NCBI RefSeq assembly: GCF_010586825.1
Contig: NZ_JAAAGB010000008.1
Coordinates: forward strand, 186,001 to 250,000
DNA from: Draconibacterium mangrovi
GTDB lineage: Bacteria; Bacteroidota; Bacteroidia; Bacteroidales; Prolixibacteraceae
Direction: 5' to 3'
Length of the DNA: 64,000 nucleotides
The translations under genes and the position numbers were made by a program. The notes under the pieces were generated by a model. The model was not told the origin of the DNA. It did no database searches and worked only from the letters and a program-made list of their open reading frames with translations. Shown one piece after another: positions 50,060 through 64,000 of this stretch (within the stretch, counting starts at the first letter, position 1; each line of letters opens with the position of its first letter).

Positions 50060-51748
50060 TTAATAGCCTTCATTTTGTACAAGATTTTCGTTAATTAAAA
50101 TCTCTTTCGAAGGTATTGGCCATAAATATTGTTTACTGGCATCAAATGTTCTTAATCCCAAAAGCTTAATTAATCCGGCATTATACATCGAAGCAAAATC
50201 AGCAATTCCATCTTCATCGATTTCCGGAGTTTCCGGGAAAAACCACAAGCCCTGATTTACAACTTTTTCTCTTAACTCATCTACATCAAGCATACCGTAA
50301 TTAGGAATATTCAATACCTTTTCGGCTAACCCCCAGCGTATGATATCCATATAACGGCGTCCTTCGAATGCAAACTCCATGCGACGTTCGATACGAAGTG
50401 TTTTGCGTAGTTCGGCCTGACCAGTTGTTGTTACTGCCGGGTAGGATACAACATCTTCGACATTTACTCCGTAGGCACGTGCGCGCACCTGGTTAATGGC
50501 ATCCAGAACCGACTCGTCGATGTCATTCAATTCAATTTTTGCTTCGGCATACATCAACAATACATCGGCGTAGCGCATGATAATGATATCGCCATCGGTT
50601 TTATAATCGTCCGACCAGTCTTCATCAACACGTTTTTTCCAAATCAAACCGTTATATGATGCATATTGGGCATTCGCTCTGGTATCGTTATTTTTAACAT
50701 ATGTACCTGAATTGAAACTATAAACCGTTAGCGAATCAGGATGTGGCTGATACATAAATCCCAGGTGATTGGTTTGAAACTCAACAATGGTTTCAGCACA
50801 TCGCGGATCACGATTCTCAAATGGATTTTGTGGATTAAAAAGTGGCGATTCATCGATTGGCAAACCATCGGTACACAGAAACGAACAGAACAATTCCCAC
50901 GACGGATCTTTTGCTGCCCATCCTCCTGAGTTCCTTGAAATGTAATTCTTACAATCGGTAAAAGCTTCGTCTAATTCTACCGAACGTGGAACAACAAAGA
51001 TGGTTTCTACCGAGTTTTTGGTTGTTGATGCAAACAATTTTCCAAAATCTGAATACAATTCATAGATATCCAGATCCATACATGCTTTGGCGGCGTCGCG
51101 AGCAACTTCGTAGTCTCCCATGTAAAGCGCAATCCGGGCTTTCAAAGCCAATGCAGCACCTTTAGTAGCTCTTTGGTTCTCCGAACTTCCATAACTTTCA
51201 GGTAAATATGTGGCTGCAAAATCATAGTCCTCGTAAATACCTTCAAGAATGATCTCTTTATCTGTTCTTGACATGGTAAATGACTCATCCAAACCGATAA
51301 TAGATGTTGAATATATAACATCGCCCCAGTGAGAGATTAGACGGGCATATTGAGCTGCCCTGTTAAAGCGGGCGTCAGCTTTATACCTATTCAATTTATC
51401 TTCGGAGATCTCGTCTGTAATTTCATCCAGATTTTTAATAAGCGTATTGGCACGTGTTATTACTTTATAGGTACGCGACCACCAATCGGAAACGGTACCG
51501 TCTTCGCCCGACATTGTTCCGCCGGTTATTGAATTGGTTGTTCCACGGTAGGTCCAATCGTCTGTCCACTGATCATCGTCCCTCGGCCAAAATACGCCTC
51601 TGTAAAGATCGTTAATAGACATCTCAATTTCAGTTTCATCAGAATACCAGTTCTCGCTTGAACCTTCAGACAACGGACTTAAATCCAGGTCTGCACAAGC
51701 TGTAAATACCAGAAGTATTAATAGTGTATATAATATTTTAATTTTCAT
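50060..51748 (-). CDS. susD: SusD-like surface glycan-binding lipoprotein 3
   Basis: 562 residues with lipobox FTAC (Cys18). It is a RagB/SusD protein with family segments around AARFNRAAQYARLISHWGD (about 125-143), MRYADVLLMYAEAKIELND (about 388-406) and ERRMEFAFEGRRYMDIIRWG (about 453-472). It lies 12 bp after susC 3, forms its partner, and is last in the sigma/anti-sigma/susC/susD unit before a terminator. Confidence 0.95.
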   Translation of the reverse strand: MKIKILYTLLILLVFTACADLDLSPLSEGSSENWYSDETEIEMSINDLYRGVFWPRDDDQWTDDWTYRGTTNSITGGTMSGEDGTVSDWWSRTYKVITRANTLIKNLDEITDEISEDKLNRYKADARFNRAAQYARLISHWGDVIYSTSIIGLDESFTMSRTDKEIILEGIYEDYDFAATYLPESYGSSENQRATKGAALALKARIALYMGDYEVARDAAKACMDLDIYELYSDFGKLFASTTKNSVETIFVVPRSVELDEAFTDCKNYISRNSGGWAAKDPSWELFCSFLCTDGLPIDESPLFNPQNPFENRDPRCAETIVEFQTNHLGFMYQPHPDSLTVYSFNSGTYVKNNDTRANAQYASYNGLIWKKRVDEDWSDDYKTDGDIIIMRYADVLLMYAEAKIELNDIDESVLDAINQVRARAYGVNVEDVVSYPAVTTTGQAELRKTLRIERRMEFAFEGRRYMDIIRWGLAEKVLNIPNYGMLDVDELREKVVNQGLWFFPETPEIDEDGIADFASMYNAGLIKLLGLRTFDASKQYLWPIPSKEILINENLVQNEGY

Positions 51749-51760
51749 AATTGCTTGCGT

Positions 51761-54700
51761 TTAAAATTTAACAGAAACACCAAAAATAAAAGAGGCAGTA
51801 ATTGGATAACCGTAAGCAGAAACCTCAGGGTCCCATCCTTTTGGATACTTATTGAACGACAAAATATCGGAAACACTTCCGTAAACACGGATGTTGTTGA
51901 TATTTATTTTCTGGCTAACAGCACTCGGAATATTGTACCCCAGGGTCATATTTTTCAAACGTAAATACCGTCCGTTAAACAACCAGTAATCCGACATAGC
52001 GTAGTTATTACTTGTGTTATTGTAGGTTAAACGCGGATACTTTACGCTTAAATTTTGTTGTTCCGTATTATAAACGCTCCAGTAATTTCCATCCAGAACT
52101 TCCTGTATATTCCCCCAGTTGTCGCGCAACGGTTGAACCATTGCTGTACTCATGCGTACGTTCTGTTTACCTACGCCCTGAAGGACCATCGAGAAATCGA
52201 AGTTTTTATACCCAAGTCGGATATTAGCTCCATACATATAACGCGGTAGTGATCCTCCCAGTAACTGACGGTCGTAATCAGAAGAGATAATACCATCGGG
52301 CACTCCATCCGGACCACTGATATCTTTATATTTTATATCTCCGGGAGAAACATTTGAATTTAACACAGCCGAATTGTCCACCTCTTCCTGCGTTTGAAAC
52401 AAACCTTCGGATACATAACCATACCATTCGTTAAACTCACTACCTTTAAATTTCACCTGATCGCCCAGGAATTGAATACCCCCAAGGTCGCCCATTTCAG
52501 ATGTAAAATCAGACAAGTTAGCCGATACCGAGTAGCTAAAATCACCAATTCTGTCGTTCCAGCTCAGTTCCAACTCCCAGCCTTTTGTATTCATTTTACC
52601 AGTGTTCTGCTGTGGATTATCAAAGCCGATGTAGTCCGGAATCTCCAGATCGAGCAACATATCTTTTGTTTTCTTCTGATAATAATCAGCTGTAACATGG
52701 AATCGGTTATCGAAGAAAACAGCATCGAAACCAAAGTCGAGCGACTCAGTTGTTTCCCAGGAAATATCCTCAATTGCATAGGCCCATTGTGCGGCTGTTT
52801 GCGAAGACACGACATTGTTTCCCTGGTAAAAAAGTGCACTTGAAAAACCAATAGTCGATTGATATGGGTAATTACCAATACGTTCGTTACCCAATGTACC
52901 CCATGATGCACGAAGTTTTAAGAACGACAGTGCCGAAATATTTTGCATGAACGACTCTTCAGAAATTACCCACCCGGCAGAGAATGAAGGGAATGATCCC
53001 CAACGGTAATCTTTTGCAAAACGCGAAGATCCATCGTAACGTATATTTCCCTGCAAGAAATATCGGTTGTTATAGTTGTACATTACACGGCCAAAATAAG
53101 AACGGTAAGCATTCTCATATGCATTTCCTCCGTTACTCAGGTAATTCTCGTTGCCCAAATCAAGGTATGGGTATGACATCAGTTCCAACTGATCGCTTGA
53201 TGCCCCAAGTTCCTCGTAGAATGCAGAATAATCCTCGTAACCTGCCATTAAATTAAAATTATGAGCATTGATCGACTTCACATAATTTGCAAGAAATTGC
53301 TTCGTTACCTGGTAATTATCGTTACGTGTTTCACTTAGGCTTGTTGATGATGCCCATTGCAAAGTTCCAACGTAAGTATTCGGATCTTCATAATCAGTAT
53401 ACTGTACTTTTTTCAGAAACTGCTTTCCTTTATCGTAGTTGAAACGAGGTGAAATAACAGCTGATAGTTTTAATCCTTCAAGCGGTGTAAAATCCAAAGC
53501 AACTTTACCTCCAACCTGATTATACCAGTATTGTCTACTTCCGCCCTCTTTTACCTGCCCATAAATATTGGCTCCCGATTTTCCTTCGGCAATCAAACCA
53601 TTCGACCAAACTGCGGCATAAACAGGTGCAGAAACTCTCATATCATACATCGGGTCTCTGCTTGGATTGTTCGAGATAGACCGTTTTGCATAGAAATCGA
53701 TAGAGGCCGACAAAAACTCATTTATTTTAACATCGTTATTAAAACGTGCGGTAAGTCTTTCGTAGCTACGTCCCTCGTACAATCCATCGGTTTTATCATA
53801 CGACAGGATGGCTTTGGTTCGAACAACCTTTGATCCGGCAGTAATACCTATCGAATGGCTTTGGCGAGGAGCGTTGTCTTTTAGAATCATGCCGGTCCAA
53901 TCGGTATCGGGATACATATCCGGATTTTCCGCATTTAAAGCAGCATAATTTTCTACAACATCCTGCGTGTAGGTAGGATATTCTCCTCCTTCAATATTTC
54001 CATTATCATTCCAACGTAATTCGTTTACCAATTGCATGTAGCGAACTGCATCGGCGTATTCTGTCAGCTCTGTTGGTTTTTCAATTCCGTATTCAAAATT
54101 GTAATCCAACCACAGTTCGCCTGATTTGGCACGTTTTGTTGTCACCAAAATAACACCTGCTGCAGCTCTCGATCCATAGATAGAAGCCGAGGCAGCATCT
54201 TTCAGTACAGAAATATTTTCGATGTCATTTGGATTAATATCGTTAATGCTTCCAACCGGCACACCATCAACAATAACCAGCGGGCTGCTTTCGCCAATTG
54301 TAGTAATACCCCTGATTCGAATTGTTGAACCGGAACCCGGTGCACTGTTATCACGGGTTACCATAACGCCGGCCATGGCTCCCTGTAAAGCTTGCGAAAC
54401 CTGAGTTGACTGACGCTCGGAAACTACCGAACCTTTAACTGACCCAACAGCACCGGTTAAGTCACTCTTTTTTACGGTACCATAACCAATGGCTACAACC
54501 TCTTCAATTCCGATTGCCTCCGATTGCATAACAACAGAAAATTCAGTTTGGTCTCCAACTTCAACTTCCTGGGTTGCCATTCCCACAAAGCTGAATACAA
54601 GAACCTGGGAACTGTTTTCAACATTTAGAGAGAAATGACCATCCATATCGGTAACGGTACCAATTGTTGTACCTTGAACAACCACTGTTACTCCTGGAAG

Positions 54701-55153
54701 CGTTTCTCCTGTTTCAGATATTACGGTACCTGTTACTTTTCGGGATTGCTGAAAGAAATCGTCATTCTCTCTCAATTGCAAATCTTCAGGACTCAATACA
54801 ATCTGACGATTATTGATAAAGTATTTTACTCCTTCTCCCTGAAATAATTCATCTAGTACCTCTTCAATTTTTTTATTATTGATGTTCACATCAATTTTTC
54901 GTTCTACGTCTATAAGTTTGTTAGAATAGAGAAAGTAGAATTCGCTACTTTCTTCAATTTCGAAAAGAACATCTTTCACTGTAGCGTCTTTCATCTCGAG
55001 CGACAAACGGGTTACCTGCGAATAGGAATCAATCGCAAAAACCTGGGCTATAGCGAAAAATATCAAAAAGCTAGTTAGTTTCATAATTCTAATCAATTTT
55101 GTCAGACCGGGACACAAGAAGTCCGATCCAACCATTTCTCGATTTTTTTCCAT
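51761..55153 (-). CDS. susC: SusC-like TonB-dependent transporter 3 with STN signalling domain
   Basis: The frame opens at 55180, but the ATG at 55151-55153 (MEKNREMVG) gives the usual N-terminus of this class, so about 1130 residues. The order is signal (about 1-45), STN domain (about 50-115, LSLEMKDATVKDVLFEIEES), carboxypeptidase-regulatory-like domain (about 135-210), plug (about 220-325, SPLVIVDGVPVGS) and barrel ending VKF. The STN domain contacts FecR and signals substrate presence to the ECF sigma factor encoded upstream, the FecA-FecR-FecI arrangement. Its 5' leader carries a predicted antisense RNA (55165-55254). Confidence 0.95.
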   Translation of the reverse strand: MEKNREMVGSDFLCPGLTKLIRIMKLTSFLIFFAIAQVFAIDSYSQVTRLSLEMKDATVKDVLFEIEESSEFYFLYSNKLIDVERKIDVNINNKKIEEVLDELFQGEGVKYFINNRQIVLSPEDLQLRENDDFFQQSRKVTGTVISETGETLPGVTVVVQGTTIGTVTDMDGHFSLNVENSSQVLVFSFVGMATQEVEVGDQTEFSVVMQSEAIGIEEVVAIGYGTVKKSDLTGAVGSVKGSVVSERQSTQVSQALQGAMAGVMVTRDNSAPGSGSTIRIRGITTIGESSPLVIVDGVPVGSINDINPNDIENISVLKDAASASIYGSRAAAGVILVTTKRAKSGELWLDYNFEYGIEKPTELTEYADAVRYMQLVNELRWNDNGNIEGGEYPTYTQDVVENYAALNAENPDMYPDTDWTGMILKDNAPRQSHSIGITAGSKVVRTKAILSYDKTDGLYEGRSYERLTARFNNDVKINEFLSASIDFYAKRSISNNPSRDPMYDMRVSAPVYAAVWSNGLIAEGKSGANIYGQVKEGGSRQYWYNQVGGKVALDFTPLEGLKLSAVISPRFNYDKGKQFLKKVQYTDYEDPNTYVGTLQWASSTSLSETRNDNYQVTKQFLANYVKSINAHNFNLMAGYEDYSAFYEELGASSDQLELMSYPYLDLGNENYLSNGGNAYENAYRSYFGRVMYNYNNRYFLQGNIRYDGSSRFAKDYRWGSFPSFSAGWVISEESFMQNISALSFLKLRASWGTLGNERIGNYPYQSTIGFSSALFYQGNNVVSSQTAAQWAYAIEDISWETTESLDFGFDAVFFDNRFHVTADYYQKKTKDMLLDLEIPDYIGFDNPQQNTGKMNTKGWELELSWNDRIGDFSYSVSANLSDFTSEMGDLGGIQFLGDQVKFKGSEFNEWYGYVSEGLFQTQEEVDNSAVLNSNVSPGDIKYKDISGPDGVPDGIISSDYDRQLLGGSLPRYMYGANIRLGYKNFDFSMVLQGVGKQNVRMSTAMVQPLRDNWGNIQEVLDGNYWSVYNTEQQNLSVKYPRLTYNNTSNNYAMSDYWLFNGRYLRLKNMTLGYNIPSAVSQKININNIRVYGSVSDILSFNKYPKGWDPEVSAYGYPITASFIFGVSVKF

Positions 55154-55160
55154 AATTTTG
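55153..55160 (+). promoter_or_regulatory. Candidate -7 element for an antisense RNA over the susC leader
   Basis: TAATTTTG fits TAnnTTTG exactly on the plus strand, opposite to all neighbouring genes. It overlaps the susC 3 start codon and lies 55 bp before the rightward terminator. No clear -33 TTG is present. Confidence 0.45.
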
Positions 55161-55164
55161 TGAT

Positions 55165-55254
55165 GGTTTGAATTTGACAAGTTTAATCTTATTGTTATCG
55201 TAAAAATTCAGATCTGAGATGGAAAATGTTGGAGCATTTTCCATTTCGTTTTTT
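55165..55254 (+). ncRNA. Predicted DonS-like cis-antisense small RNA of susC 3
   Basis: About 90 nt between a -7 box (55153-55160) and an intrinsic terminator (55215-55254), on the strand opposite susC. It covers the untranslated leader of susC mRNA, between fecR and susC. In Bacteroides fragilis DonS, and in related sigma/anti-sigma-controlled PULs, small RNAs occupy this same place and orientation and repress susC expression. The terminator is observed directly. The RNA itself, its ends and its function are inferred. Confidence 0.5.
55215..55254 (+). terminator. Rightward intrinsic terminator with no rightward gene
   Basis: A 14-bp stem (55215-55228 with 55235-55248, ten perfect inner Watson-Crick pairs plus two G-U pairs) with a 6-nt loop is followed directly by six T (55249-55254). 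On the minus strand the two G-U pairs become A-C mismatches and no T-run follows, so it serves a plus-strand RNA. All genes from 35992 to 64000 are leftward. Confidence 0.75.
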
Positions 55255-55376
55255 AGGTATCATTTCATTGGCAAGTCTTTTTAGTTCATAAATTGGTTTG
55301 TTAGTTGTTTATTCCAAAACAAGCGATATTAGTTTTATTGTTTGTGTCAAAATGACTGATAATCTGGTTTGATAAG

Positions 55377-56459
55377 CTACCTGGCACTTACAATGTATTC
55401 TATTTTCTCAATGCCATTTTCGCCGTCATCATCAATATACTTTGTGCTGTACATCAGTGGCGCGGCTTTACACAAGTATTCTAAAACCATAGGTAGCGTT
55501 TCGTTCACAACCGTAAATGTAAACGGATGGCTATACAAGTTCTCGGTATCTCCGGCTAAAAGAATATCTGCATCAAAATGTCTTTCAAGCGTTTTACAAA
55601 CCTCCTGTAAAGGGATATTTCTGAATACCAGTTTCCCGTCTTTCCAGGCCACATCATCCATTACATCCTCACGTGAAATCGCTACTTTACTGTCTTCCAA
55701 ATTTAAAGTGGCTTTGTCGCCCGGAGTCAATTCGATACTACTCCCCGACTTATCTCCTACCCTGCTTAGTTCAACTTTTCCTTCAACCAAAACGGTCTCA
55801 ACTTTACTGTCATCGGCATATCCTTTTACATTGAACTTGGTTCCGGTAACTTTTATCCGTGCTCCGTTGGCAGTTACAAAAAAGGGCAAATCTTCGTTAT
55901 GGGCTACTTCAAAATAGGCCTCACCCAAAAGCAGAATATCGCGTTCTTTTGTATTAAACTGGTTCGAGTATTTTATTTCAGTCTCAGAGTTTACCCACAC
56001 CCGGGTTCCATCCGGAAGCGTTAATCTGCTTTGTTCTGCTGTGGGAACATAAACAGAAAAATATTCAGGATTTGTATTTTTATTGCTGATATAGTTTGTT
56101 ACTAACGTAAACGAAATCATCAGAAAAATAACTGCAGCGGCAGCTACTCCACCCCGGTAAATAAACTTCGAGGTTTTTAAAATAACGGTCTTGGATTTCT
56201 CTTCCCGGTAATTATTCCAGGTTTCTTCAAACTGGTTGTGCAGTTTTACATCCGGAACTTCGTCCAGTGAAGTATGGTCCTCCATCGAACCTAATCCGAG
56301 TATAATTTTCTCAGCCTGATCGGCAGCATATTTTGTATCAGGAAATGCTTTAAAATAAGCTTTCCACTTTTTTTGTTGTTTTACCGACTCATTAATGACA
56401 TACTCGGTGAAGTTTTCACTAAACAAAAAATCATCGATATCTATATATTTCTTATGCAT
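55377..56459 (-). CDS. FecR-type anti-sigma factor
   Basis: 360 residues. A cytoplasmic N-terminal sigma-binding part (about 1-90) is followed by one membrane segment (about 93-116, GVAAAAVIFLMISFTLV), a periplasmic FecR domain (about 130-225, RLTLPDGTRVWVNSETEI and GEAYFEVAH) and a C-terminal DUF4974 domain (about 275-345). It holds the ECF sigma factor inactive until the STN domain of SusC 3 reports substrate. It lies 45 bp after the sigma factor gene and 223 bp before the susC 3 start, where the antisense RNA is predicted. Confidence 0.95.
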   Translation of the reverse strand: MHKKYIDIDDFLFSENFTEYVINESVKQQKKWKAYFKAFPDTKYAADQAEKIILGLGSMEDHTSLDEVPDVKLHNQFEETWNNYREEKSKTVILKTSKFIYRGGVAAAAVIFLMISFTLVTNYISNKNTNPEYFSVYVPTAEQSRLTLPDGTRVWVNSETEIKYSNQFNTKERDILLLGEAYFEVAHNEDLPFFVTANGARIKVTGTKFNVKGYADDSKVETVLVEGKVELSRVGDKSGSSIELTPGDKATLNLEDSKVAISREDVMDDVAWKDGKLVFRNIPLQEVCKTLERHFDADILLAGDTENLYSHPFTFTVVNETLPMVLEYLCKAAPLMYSTKYIDDDGENGIEKIEYIVSAR

Positions 56460-56504: not shown

Positions 56505-57113
56505 CTATTCCATTTTCCGAAATAAATGTAAGAGCACTATCATTTTTCCTTTCGGCTGCTCATCATCAAAATCTTTTCGGATATTTTTTAGCGCATTACA
56601 CAAGGTGTTTCGTACTGTTTGATACGAAACACCAAGCACTTCTGCAATTTCTTTATTATTTAAGCCTGAAAAATATTTCATGTAAATAATTTCTTTTTGA
56701 CGTGCTCCAAGTTTATTCACCGATTTGAACAATACTTTAAGCGTTTTATTCTCATCTTCATTTTCGCCAAAAGACGGCTCAACACCTTCGTCAAAACTAA
56801 AATCGGGATTTAGCGGATCAAACAGTTCGGTTACCTTATATACTTTTTCATTTAAAGCCTTAAATAGCCTCCTTCGAATAGAACAAAGCAAATACAGACG
56901 AATATTATCGGTATCGCTTAACCTGTCTTTTAGCACTAGAATATTTACAAATAAATCTTGTATCAGATCTTCAACAAGAGAAGTATCAGAAGTAAACTTA
57001 CGACAGTAATTGTATAAAAACCGATAATGATCAAAGTAAATTTTTTGAAAAGCGACCTTGTGTCCCTTCCTAAAATTCTGCCATATCCGGATATCGGTTT
57101 CTGTTTTAGCCAA
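56505..57113 (-). CDS. ECF RNA polymerase sigma factor
   Basis: 202 residues. Sigma-70 region 2 covers about 20-85 (FQKIYFDHYRFLYNYCRKF and DLIQDLFVNI). Region 4 covers about 130-185 (LGARQKEIIYMKYFSGLNN, KEIAEVLGVSYQTVRN HTH). It is a FecI-type sigma factor of the kind that drives PUL expression in Bacteroidota. It is first of the leftward sigma/anti-sigma/susC/susD unit. The 810 bp upstream have no gene and should contain its promoter. Confidence 0.95.
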   Translation of the reverse strand: MAKTETDIRIWQNFRKGHKVAFQKIYFDHYRFLYNYCRKFTSDTSLVEDLIQDLFVNILVLKDRLSDTDNIRLYLLCSIRRRLFKALNEKVYKVTELFDPLNPDFSFDEGVEPSFGENEDENKTLKVLFKSVNKLGARQKEIIYMKYFSGLNNKEIAEVLGVSYQTVRNTLCNALKNIRKDFDDEQPKGKMIVLLHLFRKME

Positions 57114-57923: not shown

Positions 57924-60119
57924 TTATTGAACATGATCAATACCCTTAACTGTTGGCACCACCGGTTTAATGGTACCATCTTCATTGAATTCCATTTTAT
58001 CGATACAAACTTCGCGGTGATATCCGGGACCATCTTTTAAATGCTTTGCATTGATTCGATGATACACCATGTACCATTCGTCTTTACCAGGCACCTGAAG
58101 TACCGAGTGGTGTCCGGTTCCGTATATACCGTTGTCTGCATCCTGAATGAGCACAATTGGGTTTTCGGCCACTTTAATTGGCCCCATTGGCGATTTGGAA
58201 GTTCCGTAAGCAACATGATAATTTGGTGAACCCGTATCATCAACCGACCACATAAAATAATAGGTTCCTTCGCGGTAAATCACATAAATTCCTTCGCGGA
58301 AAGCATAATCAGCAAGCGTTCCTCCTTTTGGCGTTAGTACTTTTATTGTCTCCTTTTTTAGGGAAACCATATCGTCATTCAGCTCTGCTGCTGCCAGATA
58401 ACCATTTCCCCAGTAGATGTATGCTTTACCTGAAACGGGATCGATAAAAGCACAAGGATCGATTTGTTGTCCCCTGCCTGCAGGAGATTCCTTTATCATC
58501 GGCTCTTTTCCGGCAACGAACGGACCGGTTGGATCATCCGCTACCGCTACACCAATCTGTTTTCCTCCTCCGGCCACATAGTTTCCGCTGAAATAGTAGT
58601 AGTATTTATAATCGTCACCCACTTTTTTTTCCACAATGGTTGGAGCCCACGAACTGCCGTTAGCCCACGGCACATCGCCGGCTTTCATATCCAGAATTTT
58701 ACCTTCATCTTTCCAGTTCACTAAATCATCAGAAGAAAACACTTTGAAATAGTAGCCCGACCAACCCCGAAATCCGTCAGAAGTTGGATAGATGTAATAT
58801 TTCCCGGTTTTGTTGGAATACAACACTTGCGGATCGGCGTAAAAGCCAACCAGTGCCGGGTTATGGTCTTCTGACGCAGTAACACTATAAACCACCGGCT
58901 CCTGCCCAACAATGGTAAACGTATAGTCAACTGCACCTTTCGAAAAATCCTGCGGGCCCTGAGGTGCAACCGTTATACCTCGCCAGGCGGTAAACTGCGG
59001 ATCAAATGTGCTTAAATCTGTGCCTACTCTTACAGGAAGATGAATCGTCTTTTCCTCCCCGTTAATAAGCACATTGTTCTTTTTTAACTGATCGGAAGTG
59101 GCATCAATAAACAAATCATCAGGCCTTGCATAAGTTGTCAATAAGCGTTTGTACTCCTCCGAAGTTATGGGCATTACCGTACCGTGGCGCGGATGAAAAT
59201 TCATCGAAATCTCCTCGTCGATCACTTCGAAATGTTGTAAATCAGGGCTTTTTGTAAACTGGTAGCGGCCGTTGGTGTAAACATCGTACATGAGTATCCA
59301 CTCATCAGAATTATTCAGTTTGAAAACGCCTGAGCCTTCCACCCGTTCCGTTTCTTTATCCACACGATCAAAATTCGGATATGTGTACCCTTCTGTGAGT
59401 TTATCAGAAATAGCCAGTTTTATTCCCGGAGCTCCACTCTCCGACTTATGGAACAAATAGAACTTACCGTCTTTTTCAATAATATCCCCGTCGATGCAAG
59501 CATTGTTGGTTGGATTGTATAACAACTGTTTTGGTGCTGCCTCGAAACCACTAAAATCCTTATTGGCATAGGCATAATAAATAATATCAGGATGCGCACC
59601 TTTGTCTTTCATCGACCAGTAAACCATGTATTTTCCTGCGGCTTTATCGTAAATGGTTTGCGGCGCCCAAACACGGTCTACATCACCAAACTCTTCGGGG
59701 TACGTCTCCGGAATATTAATTACTGTTGTTTTCCAGTTAATCAGATCAGTCGATTTCATCAAGATCATCGCGAAATTATTCCAACCCTGTTCGGGCACAT
59801 ACAAATCGGTGGCAACCATGTAAAAGGTTTTACCATCGGCGCCACGTAAAATGTGCGGATCGCGAACGCCACCTGACGTACTGATCTTTTTGGAATCCAA
59901 AACCGGCTGGTTGTTGTTTAGTGCACGATAGTTATAACCATCGGTACTTACCGCATAGCGAATGGCCTCACCCCCCGGCCCATTACCCGTAAAATAGGTA
60001 AACAGGTAGGCATCAGTTTGTGGTGTTTTGTTTTGACACGAAACGATTGGAAACAGTCCTGCCAAAAACAGGAGACATTTTAGCATTGCCACTATTGACT
60101 TAGGTTTTGATTTATTCAT
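57924..60119 (-). CDS. Tandem GH43 lipoprotein with two catalytic domains
   Basis: 731 residues with lipobox PIVSC (Cys28). The first GH43 five-bladed propeller is about 35-330: Asp87 in GVRDPH is the base and Glu261 in VEGSG the acid. A DUF5018-like Ig linker (about 345-415) contains APQGPQDFS, also found in the surface lipoprotein at 25063. The second GH43 propeller is about 422-725: Asp429 in YADP is the base, Asp554 in QIDP the modulator and Glu609 in FREG the acid. Both sites look intact, so the protein may have two activities, such as arabinofuranosidase, xylosidase or galactofuranosidase types. It is transcribed separately from GH125/GH92, with the terminator at 60459 between them. Confidence 0.88.
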   Translation of the reverse strand: MNKSKPKSIVAMLKCLLFLAGLFPIVSCQNKTPQTDAYLFTYFTGNGPGGEAIRYAVSTDGYNYRALNNNQPVLDSKKISTSGGVRDPHILRGADGKTFYMVATDLYVPEQGWNNFAMILMKSTDLINWKTTVINIPETYPEEFGDVDRVWAPQTIYDKAAGKYMVYWSMKDKGAHPDIIYYAYANKDFSGFEAAPKQLLYNPTNNACIDGDIIEKDGKFYLFHKSESGAPGIKLAISDKLTEGYTYPNFDRVDKETERVEGSGVFKLNNSDEWILMYDVYTNGRYQFTKSPDLQHFEVIDEEISMNFHPRHGTVMPITSEEYKRLLTTYARPDDLFIDATSDQLKKNNVLINGEEKTIHLPVRVGTDLSTFDPQFTAWRGITVAPQGPQDFSKGAVDYTFTIVGQEPVVYSVTASEDHNPALVGFYADPQVLYSNKTGKYYIYPTSDGFRGWSGYYFKVFSSDDLVNWKDEGKILDMKAGDVPWANGSSWAPTIVEKKVGDDYKYYYYFSGNYVAGGGKQIGVAVADDPTGPFVAGKEPMIKESPAGRGQQIDPCAFIDPVSGKAYIYWGNGYLAAAELNDDMVSLKKETIKVLTPKGGTLADYAFREGIYVIYREGTYYFMWSVDDTGSPNYHVAYGTSKSPMGPIKVAENPIVLIQDADNGIYGTGHHSVLQVPGKDEWYMVYHRINAKHLKDGPGYHREVCIDKMEFNEDGTIKPVVPTVKGIDHVQ

Positions 60120-60516
60120 ATGTATGTAGTTTTATATACGGATTTTATTGCCACAAATTTATTTAACCGATAGCTTTTAAACTGTTACAGAATCGTCAAA
60201 TTGAAGAAACAAATTCGAAAAACCGCTCAAAAAAAGGATCAATTATAGCGATTGTTTCCTTTTTTCAAAACTTAACCCGAAAGAATATTGTATTCATTCC
60301 TCTGTTTAATTATGGTTTGTCGTTGCGCAACGATCCTTAATTTTAGGACTAATTTTCAGGCCTCATTACCTATTGTGATTTAGAATTTTTCAGCAACAAC
60401 GAGGTTTGGTATCAAAAACTAAAAATCGTTGAATTAAGAACAGCTTTACCAAATAAAAAAGCAACAACCTAAATTAGATTGTTGCTTTTTGTGATGTATC
60501 TTTTTTGGAAGACCAA
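60120..60516. other. Intergenic region between GH125 and GH43
   Basis: It contains the GH125 terminator (60454-60485) and a perfect 12-bp palindrome CGTTGCGCAACG (60321-60332), 200 bp upstream of the GH43 start, which could be a regulator site. No gene is seen. Confidence 0.45.
60454..60485 (-). terminator. Intrinsic terminator after GH125
   Basis: An 11-bp stem (60475-60485 with 60459-60469, one G-U pair on the minus strand) with a 5-nt loop is followed on the minus strand by six T. It lies about 30 bp after the GH125 stop. The stem sequence AGCAACAATC is shared with the terminator at 35842-35873. Confidence 0.8.
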
Positions 60517-61953
60517 TTAAACCTCTAACAGGTTCTCTTTCCCTTCGTTAACCAGCTTTAACACCAGCTCGCCAAACAAGGTATTTGCCCATGCAAACCA
60601 CGAACGTGTGAAGTTTGCAGGATCGTCTTTGTGGAAAGTTTCGTGCATAAAACCGGTATCGGCGTCGGTATCGCGCAAGGTTTTAATACACCAGCTTATT
60701 TCCTTATCATCCGAGCTCGTCATAGCACGCATAATAATACTCATTGGCCAAACCATATCGTATCCAACGTGAGGGCCACCAATTCCTTCGGCTGCTTTTC
60801 CTTTAAAGAAATAAGGATTGTCTTGGCTCCAAACCAGCTTGCGGGTATTTTGGTAAATTTTATTGTCTTTATCAACCAGTCCTAGATAAGGCAAAGCCAG
60901 CAAACTTGGCACATTTGCATCATCCATAAACGTGTGGTTACCAAAACCATCTACCTCAAAAGCATAAACTTTTCCGTATTTTTTATGGTCTACAATGGCA
61001 TATTCCTTAATTGCCGCATCCACTTCTTTTGATAAAGCCAAACACTCTTTAGCAAATGCCTTATCGCCTGTAATTTCATTGCTAATTTCTGCCATTTGTT
61101 TCAATGATACAACTGCAAAAATGTTTGAAGGAATTAAAAAGCCGTAAGTAGTTGCATCATCCGATGGACGGAAGGTTGAGTTAATTAGCCCAACAGGTTT
61201 TAACGGACGTCCATAACCATGATTAGCAACTGTATCTAATTGCTGAGGTGTTTCGCGCTGAAATTTATAAGGTCCCAGGCTATCCTTGCGTTGCTGTTCC
61301 TTAAATGTTTTTACAATCAGAGCTGCTGCTTTTTGCCAGTCGGCATCAAAAACACTTTTATCGCCGGTAGTTTTCCAGTAGTTGTAAGCCAAACGAACGG
61401 TATAACACAGCGAGTCAATTTCCCATTTGCGTTCGTGTAAACCGGGTTTCATGTCGGTCATATCGCTCATCCAGTGTACTTCTTCTTCCTTTGTTTTGTT
61501 GAAAGCGTTGGCATAACTATCGAGCAAAACACATTGGGTTTGACGGTGAACAACTCCGGCCAGCAAAGTTTTCAATTCGTCATCCTGGTTGGCAAGAGGC
61601 ATATATGGCCAAACCTGGGCTGTTGAATCGCGCAACCACATGGCATGAATATCGCCGGTAATTACAAAAGTATCGGGTTTACCATTTAGCGTTCCGTGCT
61701 CAACTGTTGTATCCAGCGTGTTCGGAAAACAGTTTTCGAACATCCAGGCCAGCTTCGGATCTTTAATTTTTGCTTTTGCTGCTGCAATTGTTTCTTCTAC
61801 AGCCTTCGACACAAAATTACGTTCGCCGGCGGCAGGACGATTGCTTACATAGCTTTTTCTACCAGTCGCGGCCCAAACCGACGAACTTCCGGCAATTCCG
61901 ATTCCGGCAACTGTTAATGCTCCTGCTTTTATAAAATCTCTTCTTGTATTCAT
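60517..61953 (-). CDS. GH125 exo-alpha-mannosidase
   Basis: 478 residues. The N-terminus is a Tat-type signal (NTRRDFIKAG, then an AG-rich hydrophobic stretch), so it is probably exported folded. The DUF1237/GH125 alpha/alpha-barrel covers about 45-475, with HAMWLRDSTAQVWPYM (about 103-118), the family's FRPSDDATTYGFLIPSNIF (about 261-279) and GPHVGYDMVWPMSIIMRAM (about 392-410). Family members release alpha-1,6-linked mannose from N-glycans or mannan. It lies 33 bp after the GH92 gene in the same orientation, so the pair is co-transcribed and acts together on alpha-mannosides. Confidence 0.93.
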   Translation of the reverse strand: MNTRRDFIKAGALTVAGIGIAGSSSVWAATGRKSYVSNRPAAGERNFVSKAVEETIAAAKAKIKDPKLAWMFENCFPNTLDTTVEHGTLNGKPDTFVITGDIHAMWLRDSTAQVWPYMPLANQDDELKTLLAGVVHRQTQCVLLDSYANAFNKTKEEEVHWMSDMTDMKPGLHERKWEIDSLCYTVRLAYNYWKTTGDKSVFDADWQKAAALIVKTFKEQQRKDSLGPYKFQRETPQQLDTVANHGYGRPLKPVGLINSTFRPSDDATTYGFLIPSNIFAVVSLKQMAEISNEITGDKAFAKECLALSKEVDAAIKEYAIVDHKKYGKVYAFEVDGFGNHTFMDDANVPSLLALPYLGLVDKDNKIYQNTRKLVWSQDNPYFFKGKAAEGIGGPHVGYDMVWPMSIIMRAMTSSDDKEISWCIKTLRDTDADTGFMHETFHKDDPANFTRSWFAWANTLFGELVLKLVNEGKENLLEV

Positions 61954-61986
61954 TATTATTGGTTTTATTATTATTTCGATGATTAT

Positions 61987-64000
61987 CTATTCGGCTAAAA
62001 TAATTAATTCTTTTCCGGTTTTCAGTTGATCGTACGACACAAAATACCCGTCTACTTGGTTTCCGTCGATAGTGATATCATTAATCTTTCTCCCCACATT
62101 CCGTTTTGTAATGGTAATTAGTGACTCTTCTCCCAAATCCAGTTTAACAGAATCAAAAATCGGAACCGAAACAATGTATTCTGCATCGGCCGGTGAGTAA
62201 GGATAAATTCCCATGGCAGCAAAAACATACCATGCCGACATTTCTCCTGCATCATCCATTCCGCAAAGCGCATTTTCCCACTCGCCCATTCCGTAAAAAC
62301 GGTTCATGATACTATCGAGGTACATTTGCGATTTTTCCTGCTTTCCGATAAAGGTGTACAAATACGGGAAGCTGTGATCGGGCTGATTCCCATGGCAATA
62401 CTGCCCGATAAATGAAGAAACGTTTCGCGCAATATAACTGGCATTCCATGGGATTGAAAATAACGAGTCCAGCTTTTGCTCAAATTCTTCTTCACTTTTG
62501 TACAAGCCAATCAATCCTTTGGTATCGTGTGGTGCAAAAAACGAGGACTGCCAGGCATTGGCTTCACGGTACATGTATTCGTAATACGGGTATTCTGCAT
62601 TAAAATCAGGCACCCAATCCCCATTTTCAAGGCGTCCGCGCATTAATCCGGTTGACGGATCAAAGAGGTTTTTATAATTTGAAGTGCGCTTCATCAGCAT
62701 CTCATAATCATCCTGTTTTCCCAGTTCTTCGGCAAGAAGCGCCACGGCATAATCATCGTAAGCAAATTCGAGTGTTTTGGTAACGCCGGCTTTGGCTTTC
62801 GATTCCACATGTGGATTTTGAACTTCAGGAGTCGAAATGTATCCTTTTTCGATATACTCGGCAATGTGCGGACGTGTACCTCCTTCTTTTGTTGCATTGT
62901 TCAGCAACAGCTGGTAGGCACTTTCCATATCATAGTCGCGAATGCCGCGCAGGTACGAACCGGAGATAAACGGTGCTGCGTGATCGCCGTGAAAAAAGGT
63001 AGGCATAAAACCTGTGTTTTCGCCTTTATCAATCAACGACTGAATAACATCGGCAGTTACATCAGGCGAAAGCATTCCGAGCAAAACCAACTTATTGCGG
63101 TACGTATCCCAAAGCGAAGGATTGGTGTAATAACGAAATCCTTTGTTTACAACCTTCCCTGTTGAATCTGTAAAATCGCCATTTACATCGCTGCGTAATG
63201 CCGGCCACAAAAACGAACGGTACAACGAGGAATAAAACAACTCTTTTTCTTTTTCGGTACCGCCTTCAACCTTAATTTTTGCAAGCAAATTTTCCCAGGT
63301 TTGCGAAGCTTCAGTCTTCACATCTTCAAAACTCTTACCTGTTAACTCGGCTTCCAGATTCTGCTTCGCATTCTCTGTGCTTACAAACGAAAGCGCCAGT
63401 TTGAGCTCGAGCGGCTCATCTGATTCATTAAAAGAAACAAGGGCGATCTCACGTCGTGCATCGCCGCTTGTTTTCAGGTTTACTATTGTCCGGTTGGTTT
63501 CGGCATAGAAATATATTTTTTCGCCTGTTTGCTGAAATCCTTTAATTACATTGGCGCCTTCCTGTTCAATATGCCAGTCGCGAACCCGCTCGTTTGATTT
63601 CGACAGGTTCAGTATCATGTTTTGTGGTTTACCTTTTGGATATTCGTATTTATGGTAACCGCAATGCAAGGTGCTTGTAAGCTCTGCATCAATTGCATAA
63701 CGATCGAGTTTAACCTGGTAATAACCCGGTTCAGCCGATTCGTTTTCGTGGCTGAATTTTGACCCAAAATCATTTGCGGTAAAATCTTCAGTAACCGGAA
63801 GAACCGGTATGTGACACAAATTCCAGTGGCCTTTGTTGGTGTGTGTAAAAGCCAAGATAACATCGTCTTCGTATTCGTAACCAGCACCGCTGTTCCATTC
63901 GGTAATTGGGCTAAGCTGCACCATGGCGTTTGGCAATGAAGCCCCGGGATAAGTTAATCCGGCCCACACACGCCAGTCTTTTGGCGGATTGTAACCACAG
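61987..64000 (-). CDS. GH92 alpha-mannosidase, N-terminus outside window
   Basis: The frame enters from the right edge, with codons upstream of 63969 continuing in frame (CGYNPPKDWRV), so the start and signal peptide lie outside. About 670 residues are visible. GH92 hallmarks are TYPGASLPNAMVQLSP near the start, the (alpha/alpha)6 region with YREANAWQSSFFAPHD (holding the conserved Glu expected as acid catalyst), GNQPDHSFPYLY, and CGMDDAGEMSAWYVFAAMG near the end. GH92 enzymes are calcium-dependent exo-alpha-mannosidases, mostly alpha-1,2 or alpha-1,3. The opening ends HTNKGHWN rather than the usual HLSGTG, so a distinct subfamily is possible. It is co-transcribed with GH125. Confidence 0.92.
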   Translation of the reverse strand, partial: CGYNPPKDWRVWAGLTYPGASLPNAMVQLSPITEWNSGAGYEYEDDVILAFTHTNKGHWNLCHIPVLPVTEDFTANDFGSKFSHENESAEPGYYQVKLDRYAIDAELTSTLHCGYHKYEYPKGKPQNMILNLSKSNERVRDWHIEQEGANVIKGFQQTGEKIYFYAETNRTIVNLKTSGDARREIALVSFNESDEPLELKLALSFVSTENAKQNLEAELTGKSFEDVKTEASQTWENLLAKIKVEGGTEKEKELFYSSLYRSFLWPALRSDVNGDFTDSTGKVVNKGFRYYTNPSLWDTYRNKLVLLGMLSPDVTADVIQSLIDKGENTGFMPTFFHGDHAAPFISGSYLRGIRDYDMESAYQLLLNNATKEGGTRPHIAEYIEKGYISTPEVQNPHVESKAKAGVTKTLEFAYDDYAVALLAEELGKQDDYEMLMKRTSNYKNLFDPSTGLMRGRLENGDWVPDFNAEYPYYEYMYREANAWQSSFFAPHDTKGLIGLYKSEEEFEQKLDSLFSIPWNASYIARNVSSFIGQYCHGNQPDHSFPYLYTFIGKQEKSQMYLDSIMNRFYGMGEWENALCGMDDAGEMSAWYVFAAMGIYPYSPADAEYIVSVPIFDSVKLDLGEESLITITKRNVGRKINDITIDGNQVDGYFVSYDQLKTGKELIILAE

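Follow-up and report, generated by a model that had tools for sequence, protein, structure and literature searches.

A probable DonS-type antisense RNA opposite the susC leader of an ECF/anti-sigma-controlled locus in Prolixibacteraceae

Gene context of the fecR-susC gap

The window, i.e. the whole stretch of 64,000 nucleotides that was analysed, is part of a 5.9-Mb genome from the family Prolixibacteraceae, with Draconibacterium as the nearest named relatives (susC identity 81-87% in the loci L056 and L057). On the minus strand, an ECF sigma factor gene (56505-57113) is followed by fecR, encoding an anti-sigma factor with FecR and FecR_C domains (55377-56459), a susC homologue with STN, CarbopepD_reg_2 and Plug domains (51761-55153), which is the presumed antisense target, and a susD homologue (50060-51748), all assigned with Pfam. 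For susC, the ATG at 55153 was preferred to a TTG at 55180 based on the conserved start context. In agreement with the original prediction that genes between 36 and 64 kb point leftward only, all open reading frames of at least 200 amino acids in this region are on the minus strand. Genes for GH43, GH125 and GH92 enzymes are found at 57924-63999, upstream of the ECF gene, and suggest an alpha-mannan or high-mannose N-glycan substrate, resembling the DonS PUL.

The gap between fecR and susC comprises 223 bases, and its plus strand holds TAATTTTG, a 14-bp stem and six T. The stem is formed by GAGATGGAAAATGT and GCATTTTCCATTTC (55216-55229 and 55234-55247) with the loop TGGA and the apex GUUGGAGC, together termed hairpin II (55216-55247, plus strand). 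Of its 14 pairs, two are plus-strand G-U pairs that would read A-C on the minus strand, and a 15th pair, U-G (55215-55248), places the six T (55249-55254, plus strand) immediately 3' of the stem. The element TAATTTTG (55153-55160, plus strand), an exact TAnnTTTG, lies ~55 bases ahead of the stem and is the predicted -7 box of an antisense promoter; its first T lies opposite the A of the susC ATG. Hence, both the rightward terminator with plus-strand-favouring G-U pairs and six T and the box ~55 bp before it, as originally proposed, were found as described. TAnnTTTG occurs at chance frequency in the window, 67 times versus 77 expected, so that the box is meaningful only through its position. 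Likewise, a simple search for terminators over 600 bases returned one hit versus 0.4 expected, and the terminator stands above chance because of the fold of the whole RNA and the comparative evidence described below.

The predicted antisense RNA of ~90 nt (55165-55254, plus strand) folds with -27.8 kcal/mol and a z-score of -5.05, which was equalled by no shuffled sequence, into two adjacent hairpins, hairpin I (55165-55214, plus strand) and hairpin II. Its start at G55165 is deduced from a conserved C at position -12 of susC and from the base at which hairpin I begins, and its end is predicted inside the T tract. The RNA would be complementary without mismatch to the part of the susC leader that lies ~12 to ~100 nt ahead of the start codon. 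The sense strand can also form a 10-bp hairpin; the fold of the sense leader, with a z-score of -1.28, is near background. An Rfam scan of the window yielded no family at the gathering threshold in this region or elsewhere, and for 55100-55400 no family and only chance-level matches at E <= 5 were obtained.

Conservation of the hairpins and the start-codon box

To detail the conservation of the gap, nine distinct orthologous leaders were aligned (the window, L027, L028/L056, L029, L030/L057, L031, L032, L033 and L034), whose loci have fecR identities of 47-100%. Near fecR, the sequence of the gap varies freely, in contrast to the hairpin block, which is kept. For hairpin II, 115 of 117 cells are paired, with 11 two-sided changes; with the partner strand slid, only 44-57% are. 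RNAalifold, run without a supplied structure, recovers hairpin II as well as the 5' hairpin I, which begins at base 1 of the predicted RNA and whose pairs are kept by one- and two-sided changes. Taken in the antisense reading, both hairpins together comprise 170 Watson-Crick and 30 G-U cells, with A-C absent, and the same 30 G-U cells are A-C mismatches on the mRNA; therefore, the antisense RNA appears to be the molecule under selection. L057/L030 (GTTTAATT) and L032 (CAATTTT) have a weak T tract next to an intact hairpin. L033 and L034 have the same stem with loops of opposing orientation, which gives the impression of an inverted hairpin. The first ~18 bases of the predicted RNA (GGTTTGAATTTGACA, 55165-55183) are nearly invariant across the nine orthologues. 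This segment overlaps a codon further upstream at which susC might start in frame, the TTG at 55180 in the window and an ATG in L033 and L034.

The -7 box is likewise kept at the susC start in nearly all nine orthologues. Read on the sense strand, the antisense CATAnnTTTG is CAAAnnT-ATG, which is present at the susC start of 72 of the 124 FecR-SusC loci from the class Bacteroidia, compared with 4/311 ordinary ORFs of the genome and 3/50 SusC without FecR. In the susC start context, T(-1) is conserved to 91%, C(-7) to 65% and C(-12) to 56%, and the latter fits a putative RNA start at a G five bases past the box. Box and terminator co-occur across loci (p 8e-5 with a loose definition of the box). 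No conserved -33 TTTG box was found upstream of the -7 box in 66 aligned starts; this region contains just a T tract opposite the Lys codons of MKKK. FecR loci from the phylum's other classes were left out, as they have almost no box (1/26) and their neighbours are mostly other genes or miscalled. Both conservation checks suggested with the original prediction thus turned out in its favour, with the hairpin kept in 9/9 orthologues through compensatory changes and antisense-only G-U pairs, and the box kept also class-wide.

Recurrence, loop motif and mini-ORF in Bacteroidia

The genome contains 28 matches to FecR_C and 20 usable FecR-SusC gaps. An antisense terminator is present in 18/20 of these gaps at E <= -8 and in 17/20 at E <= -10, a sense-strand terminator in 0/20, and shuffled gaps gave values of 0.25% and 0%, respectively. 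Among control tandem gaps of similar size, with genome controls drawn from 400 kb of stretches, 14/74 have an antisense terminator (p 8e-8 versus 17/20), and about half of the listed control gaps with such a terminator also bear one on the sense strand. The fecR-susC gap of L015 contains two hairpins, one a weak antisense terminator and the other, ATGTTGGTAGCAT, lacking an antisense T tract. In other genomes, 48/52 further FecR-SusC gaps have an antisense terminator, compared with 7/50 SusC without FecR (p 1e-16). It is found, for example, in Sunxiuqinia, Carboxylicivirga, Parabacteroides, Phocaeicola, Tannerellaceae, Zobellia, Maribacter, Pedobacter and Pseudarcicella, and at least five gaps of Phocaeicola massiliensis (L285, L286, L287, L290 and L293) show the layout. 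Across the RNA family, the predicted RNAs have a median length of 88.5 nt (5-95% range 70-117), with 90 nt in the window. The G-U excess over all hairpins (178 versus 24) was set aside as main evidence in favour of the orthologue count, as this genome-wide excess is partly a selection effect of finding the hairpins by a scan of the antisense strand.

A covariance model, R1, was built from 28 hairpins of many genomes, with covariation in 12 of 13 pairs. Searched against the whole genome, where 150 of 3351 candidates were scored, its first nine matches (E < 0.5) are all susC leaders, with the window on top at 49.3 bits, and the next matches (E 0.69 and above) are without an adjacent SusC. The RNA covariance search that had been named as a check therefore supports the prediction among the candidates scored. 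One R1 match outside the FecR loci and the model set, L267, lies where susC directly follows a regulator with a C-terminal AraC-type HTH, judged HTCS-like by eye. This locus shows the same antisense hairpin with a TGTTGGCGCA apex and a mini-ORF (L267 2780-2950, G000:C11:312360).

A GUU-N3-5-GC apex was found in 46 of 97 distinct antisense hairpins and in 1 of 96 ordinary terminators (p 7e-16). It is on the antisense strand in 33 and on the mRNA in 13 cases, and the stems vary widely. A common form of this loop, one of several variants, is G-UUGGCG-C, which equals rUUGGCG, a motif named for plasmid antisense RNAs in a title cited in PMC10724649 and PMC3753616. The likeness of the loops suggests a possible loop-loop contact by analogy. 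The apex GUUGGAGC of the window matches the YUNR U-turn. As a general loop rule, YUNR was rejected: with a wide definition of the apex it is present in 60/97 hairpins and 80/96 control terminators, i.e. not enriched, in contrast to the narrower GUU-N3-5-GC.

In the susC mRNA leader of the window, a start-stop mini-ORF, ATG AAA TGA (55260-55268, minus strand), is preceded by TTGCCA (55274-55269). It is conserved, with differing in-frame stops in orthologues and other loci. Directly 5' of the hairpin on the mRNA strand, many loci across the class (~35) carry TTGCC[T/A]ATG with a stop 0-5 codons later. Read in the ATG frame, 26/30 reach a stop in their first five codons, compared with 9/30 and 3/30 in the other frames and a background of 31% (p 3e-10). 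Among 78 spacers, GCC[T/A]ATG occurs in 35 versus 0.5 expected, and a short ORF ending at most 40 nt from the hairpin in 53 versus 23.7 +- 3.9 expected. Loci lacking the mini-ORF often have the hairpin directly beside the fecR stop codon. We infer that a ribosome terminating beside the hairpin matters for the switch. An assignment of TGCCTATG as an ECF promoter element was rejected, as there is no aligned -35-like partner and stops follow in the ATG frame.

Proposed function and relation to known antisense systems

Judged from the sequence comparisons, the plus strand probably encodes a DonS-type cis-antisense RNA (~55165-55254), the proposed switch on susCD. Location, orientation, predicted length, the ECF/anti-sigma context and the conservation of hairpin and -7 box all support the DonS-type reading put forward originally. 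Four other explanations have to be weighed. The antisense promoter may fire and the terminator merely shield fecR and the sigma factor gene from read-through, leaving an RNA without regulatory role. The frequent position of the hairpin next to the fecR stop (~25 loci within 12 nt) would agree with such an insulator, as would the argument, cited in PMC7366714, that many bacterial antisense RNAs are considered noise. We nevertheless consider it unlikely, since insulation requires neither the shared loop motif (46/97 versus 1/96) nor a conserved 5' hairpin, and since DonS is reported to repress its PUL (PMC11697453). It is quite unlikely that the hairpin is instead a cis-acting element of the susC leader on the sense strand, e.g. 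for stability or attenuation, with no antisense RNA being made. The sense strand is able to form its 10-bp hairpin, the mini-ORF adjoins the hairpin on this strand, and CAAAnnTATG could be a translation signal or the target of a trans-acting sRNA such as FopS near susC starts (PMC11697453). Opposed to this are the wobble cells of the orthologues, 30/30 of which are G-U only on the antisense strand, the T tract, which goes with the same strand, the z-scores of -1.28 for the sense leader versus -5.05 for the antisense RNA, and the lack of sense terminators in all 20 own-genome gaps.

The hairpin is located downstream of fecR and bidirectional terminators do exist in the genome, as seen in the control tandem gaps; it could thus belong to the fecR operon, as a terminator that is bidirectional or was misread. 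As the minus strand lacks a T tract, FecR-SusC gaps have 0/20 sense versus 17/20 antisense terminators, and the hairpin lies 129 nt past fecR, adjoining susC, this is very improbable. A chance resemblance, to which the chance-level frequency of TAnnTTTG alone in the window would point, is refuted by the orthologue covariation; the gap terminators, the start-codon box, the R1 matches, the mini-ORF statistics and the fold with its z-score of -5.05 are all against it as well, and we give it next to no weight.

For the DonS-type antisense RNA, the following mechanism can be proposed. The primary sigma factor would start the RNA at the promoter whose -7 box shares bases with the susC start codon, and the RNA would fold into its two hairpins and stop at the intrinsic terminator, hairpin II, before fecR. 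Its exposed apex GUUGGAGC may first touch the matching loop of the leader, from where pairing would spread. By inference from DonS (PMC7366714, PMC11697453), susCD would be kept off for as long as the ECF factor is inactive: by pairing with the leader close to the start codon, the RNA would lower translation and/or stability of the susCD mRNA, and convergent transcription could help the antisense RNA. Once the ECF factor is active, transcription of susC would cross the antisense promoter and swamp the RNA, resulting in a sharp switch. As antisense RNAs of B. thetaiotaomicron correlate both negatively and positively with their PULs (PMC10994844), repression cannot be assumed and the sign of the effect is uncertain.

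More tentatively, and with a smaller chance of being correct, the leader may be a class-wide module of Bacteroidia that combines a mini-ORF or fecR stop, a GUU-N3-5-GC contact hairpin and a start-codon antisense promoter, and is coupled to the ribosome. The mini-ORF, or the fecR stop itself, would end directly 5' of the hairpin, and the GUU-N3-5-GC apex on either strand would mediate the loop-loop contact between mRNA and antisense RNA. A ribosome terminating by the hairpin would then set whether the antisense RNA can pair, and antisense control might thereby be coupled to leader translation, like in plasmid copy-number circuits. If the module is class-wide, a single RNA switch would be common to the majority of glycan importers under ECF control in Bacteroidia from the sea, soil and gut. 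The layout recurs in almost all comparable Bacteroidia loci, and an on-off switch of this kind is known only from gut Bacteroides. The conserved loop and the mini-ORF are testable handles on the mechanism, and the combination of box, hairpin and mini-ORF could annotate hundreds of such RNAs without RNA-seq.

The kind of RNA is already known, and as far as the accessible literature shows, the class-wide spread, the shared loop and the mini-ORF are new; Cao et al. 2016 and the work on Segatella copri may hold parts of these. Antisense RNAs associated with PULs are known from gut Bacteroides, where their mechanism is unexplained (PMC11697453), and for B. thetaiotaomicron ten, later 32, were annotated, several of them validated by Northern blot (PMC7366714, PMC10994844). 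DonS-type RNAs of 78-128 nt are divergent to susC (PMC7366714), and the 90 nt predicted here, with both ends being predictions, are inside this range. The RNA of the window further resembles DonS and the PUL cis-antisense RNAs of B. fragilis and B. thetaiotaomicron in being antisense to the leader of a susC homologue, in its divergent orientation and overlap with the 5' leader, in the PUL with an ECF factor, a FecR-type anti-sigma factor and an STN-type SusC, and in N-glycan-like enzymes nearby (GH92, GH125). Common to both are also the intrinsic terminator on the antisense strand, here predicted, and the primary-sigma-type -7 box, with the -33 TTTG not seen here. In contrast to DonS, the host is from Prolixibacteraceae, a different family and habitat, and the RNA is a predicted one; the layout is present also in Bacteroidaceae (Phocaeicola massiliensis), the family where such RNAs were found experimentally. 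The accessible literature on DonS-type RNAs makes no mention of the loop motif and the mini-ORF. The FopS family of B. thetaiotaomicron (PMC11697453) likewise comprises small RNAs acting at susC translation initiation regions, which is predicted here. FopS RNAs are paralogues of ~65-70 nt with a shared 5' seed for several PULs (PMC11697453), whereas the RNA of the window is cis-encoded and fully complementary to one leader.

The plasmid rUUGGCG systems, named in the title of Asano et al. 1998, share the stem-loop apex G-UUGGCG-C in an antisense/leader pair. Their genes and organisms are unrelated, the exact hexamer is just one of the loop variants here, and the motif is on the target RNA, unlike here, where it is more often on the antisense RNA. 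In the plasmid rUUGGCG systems, too, a short leader ORF lies beside the antisense target.
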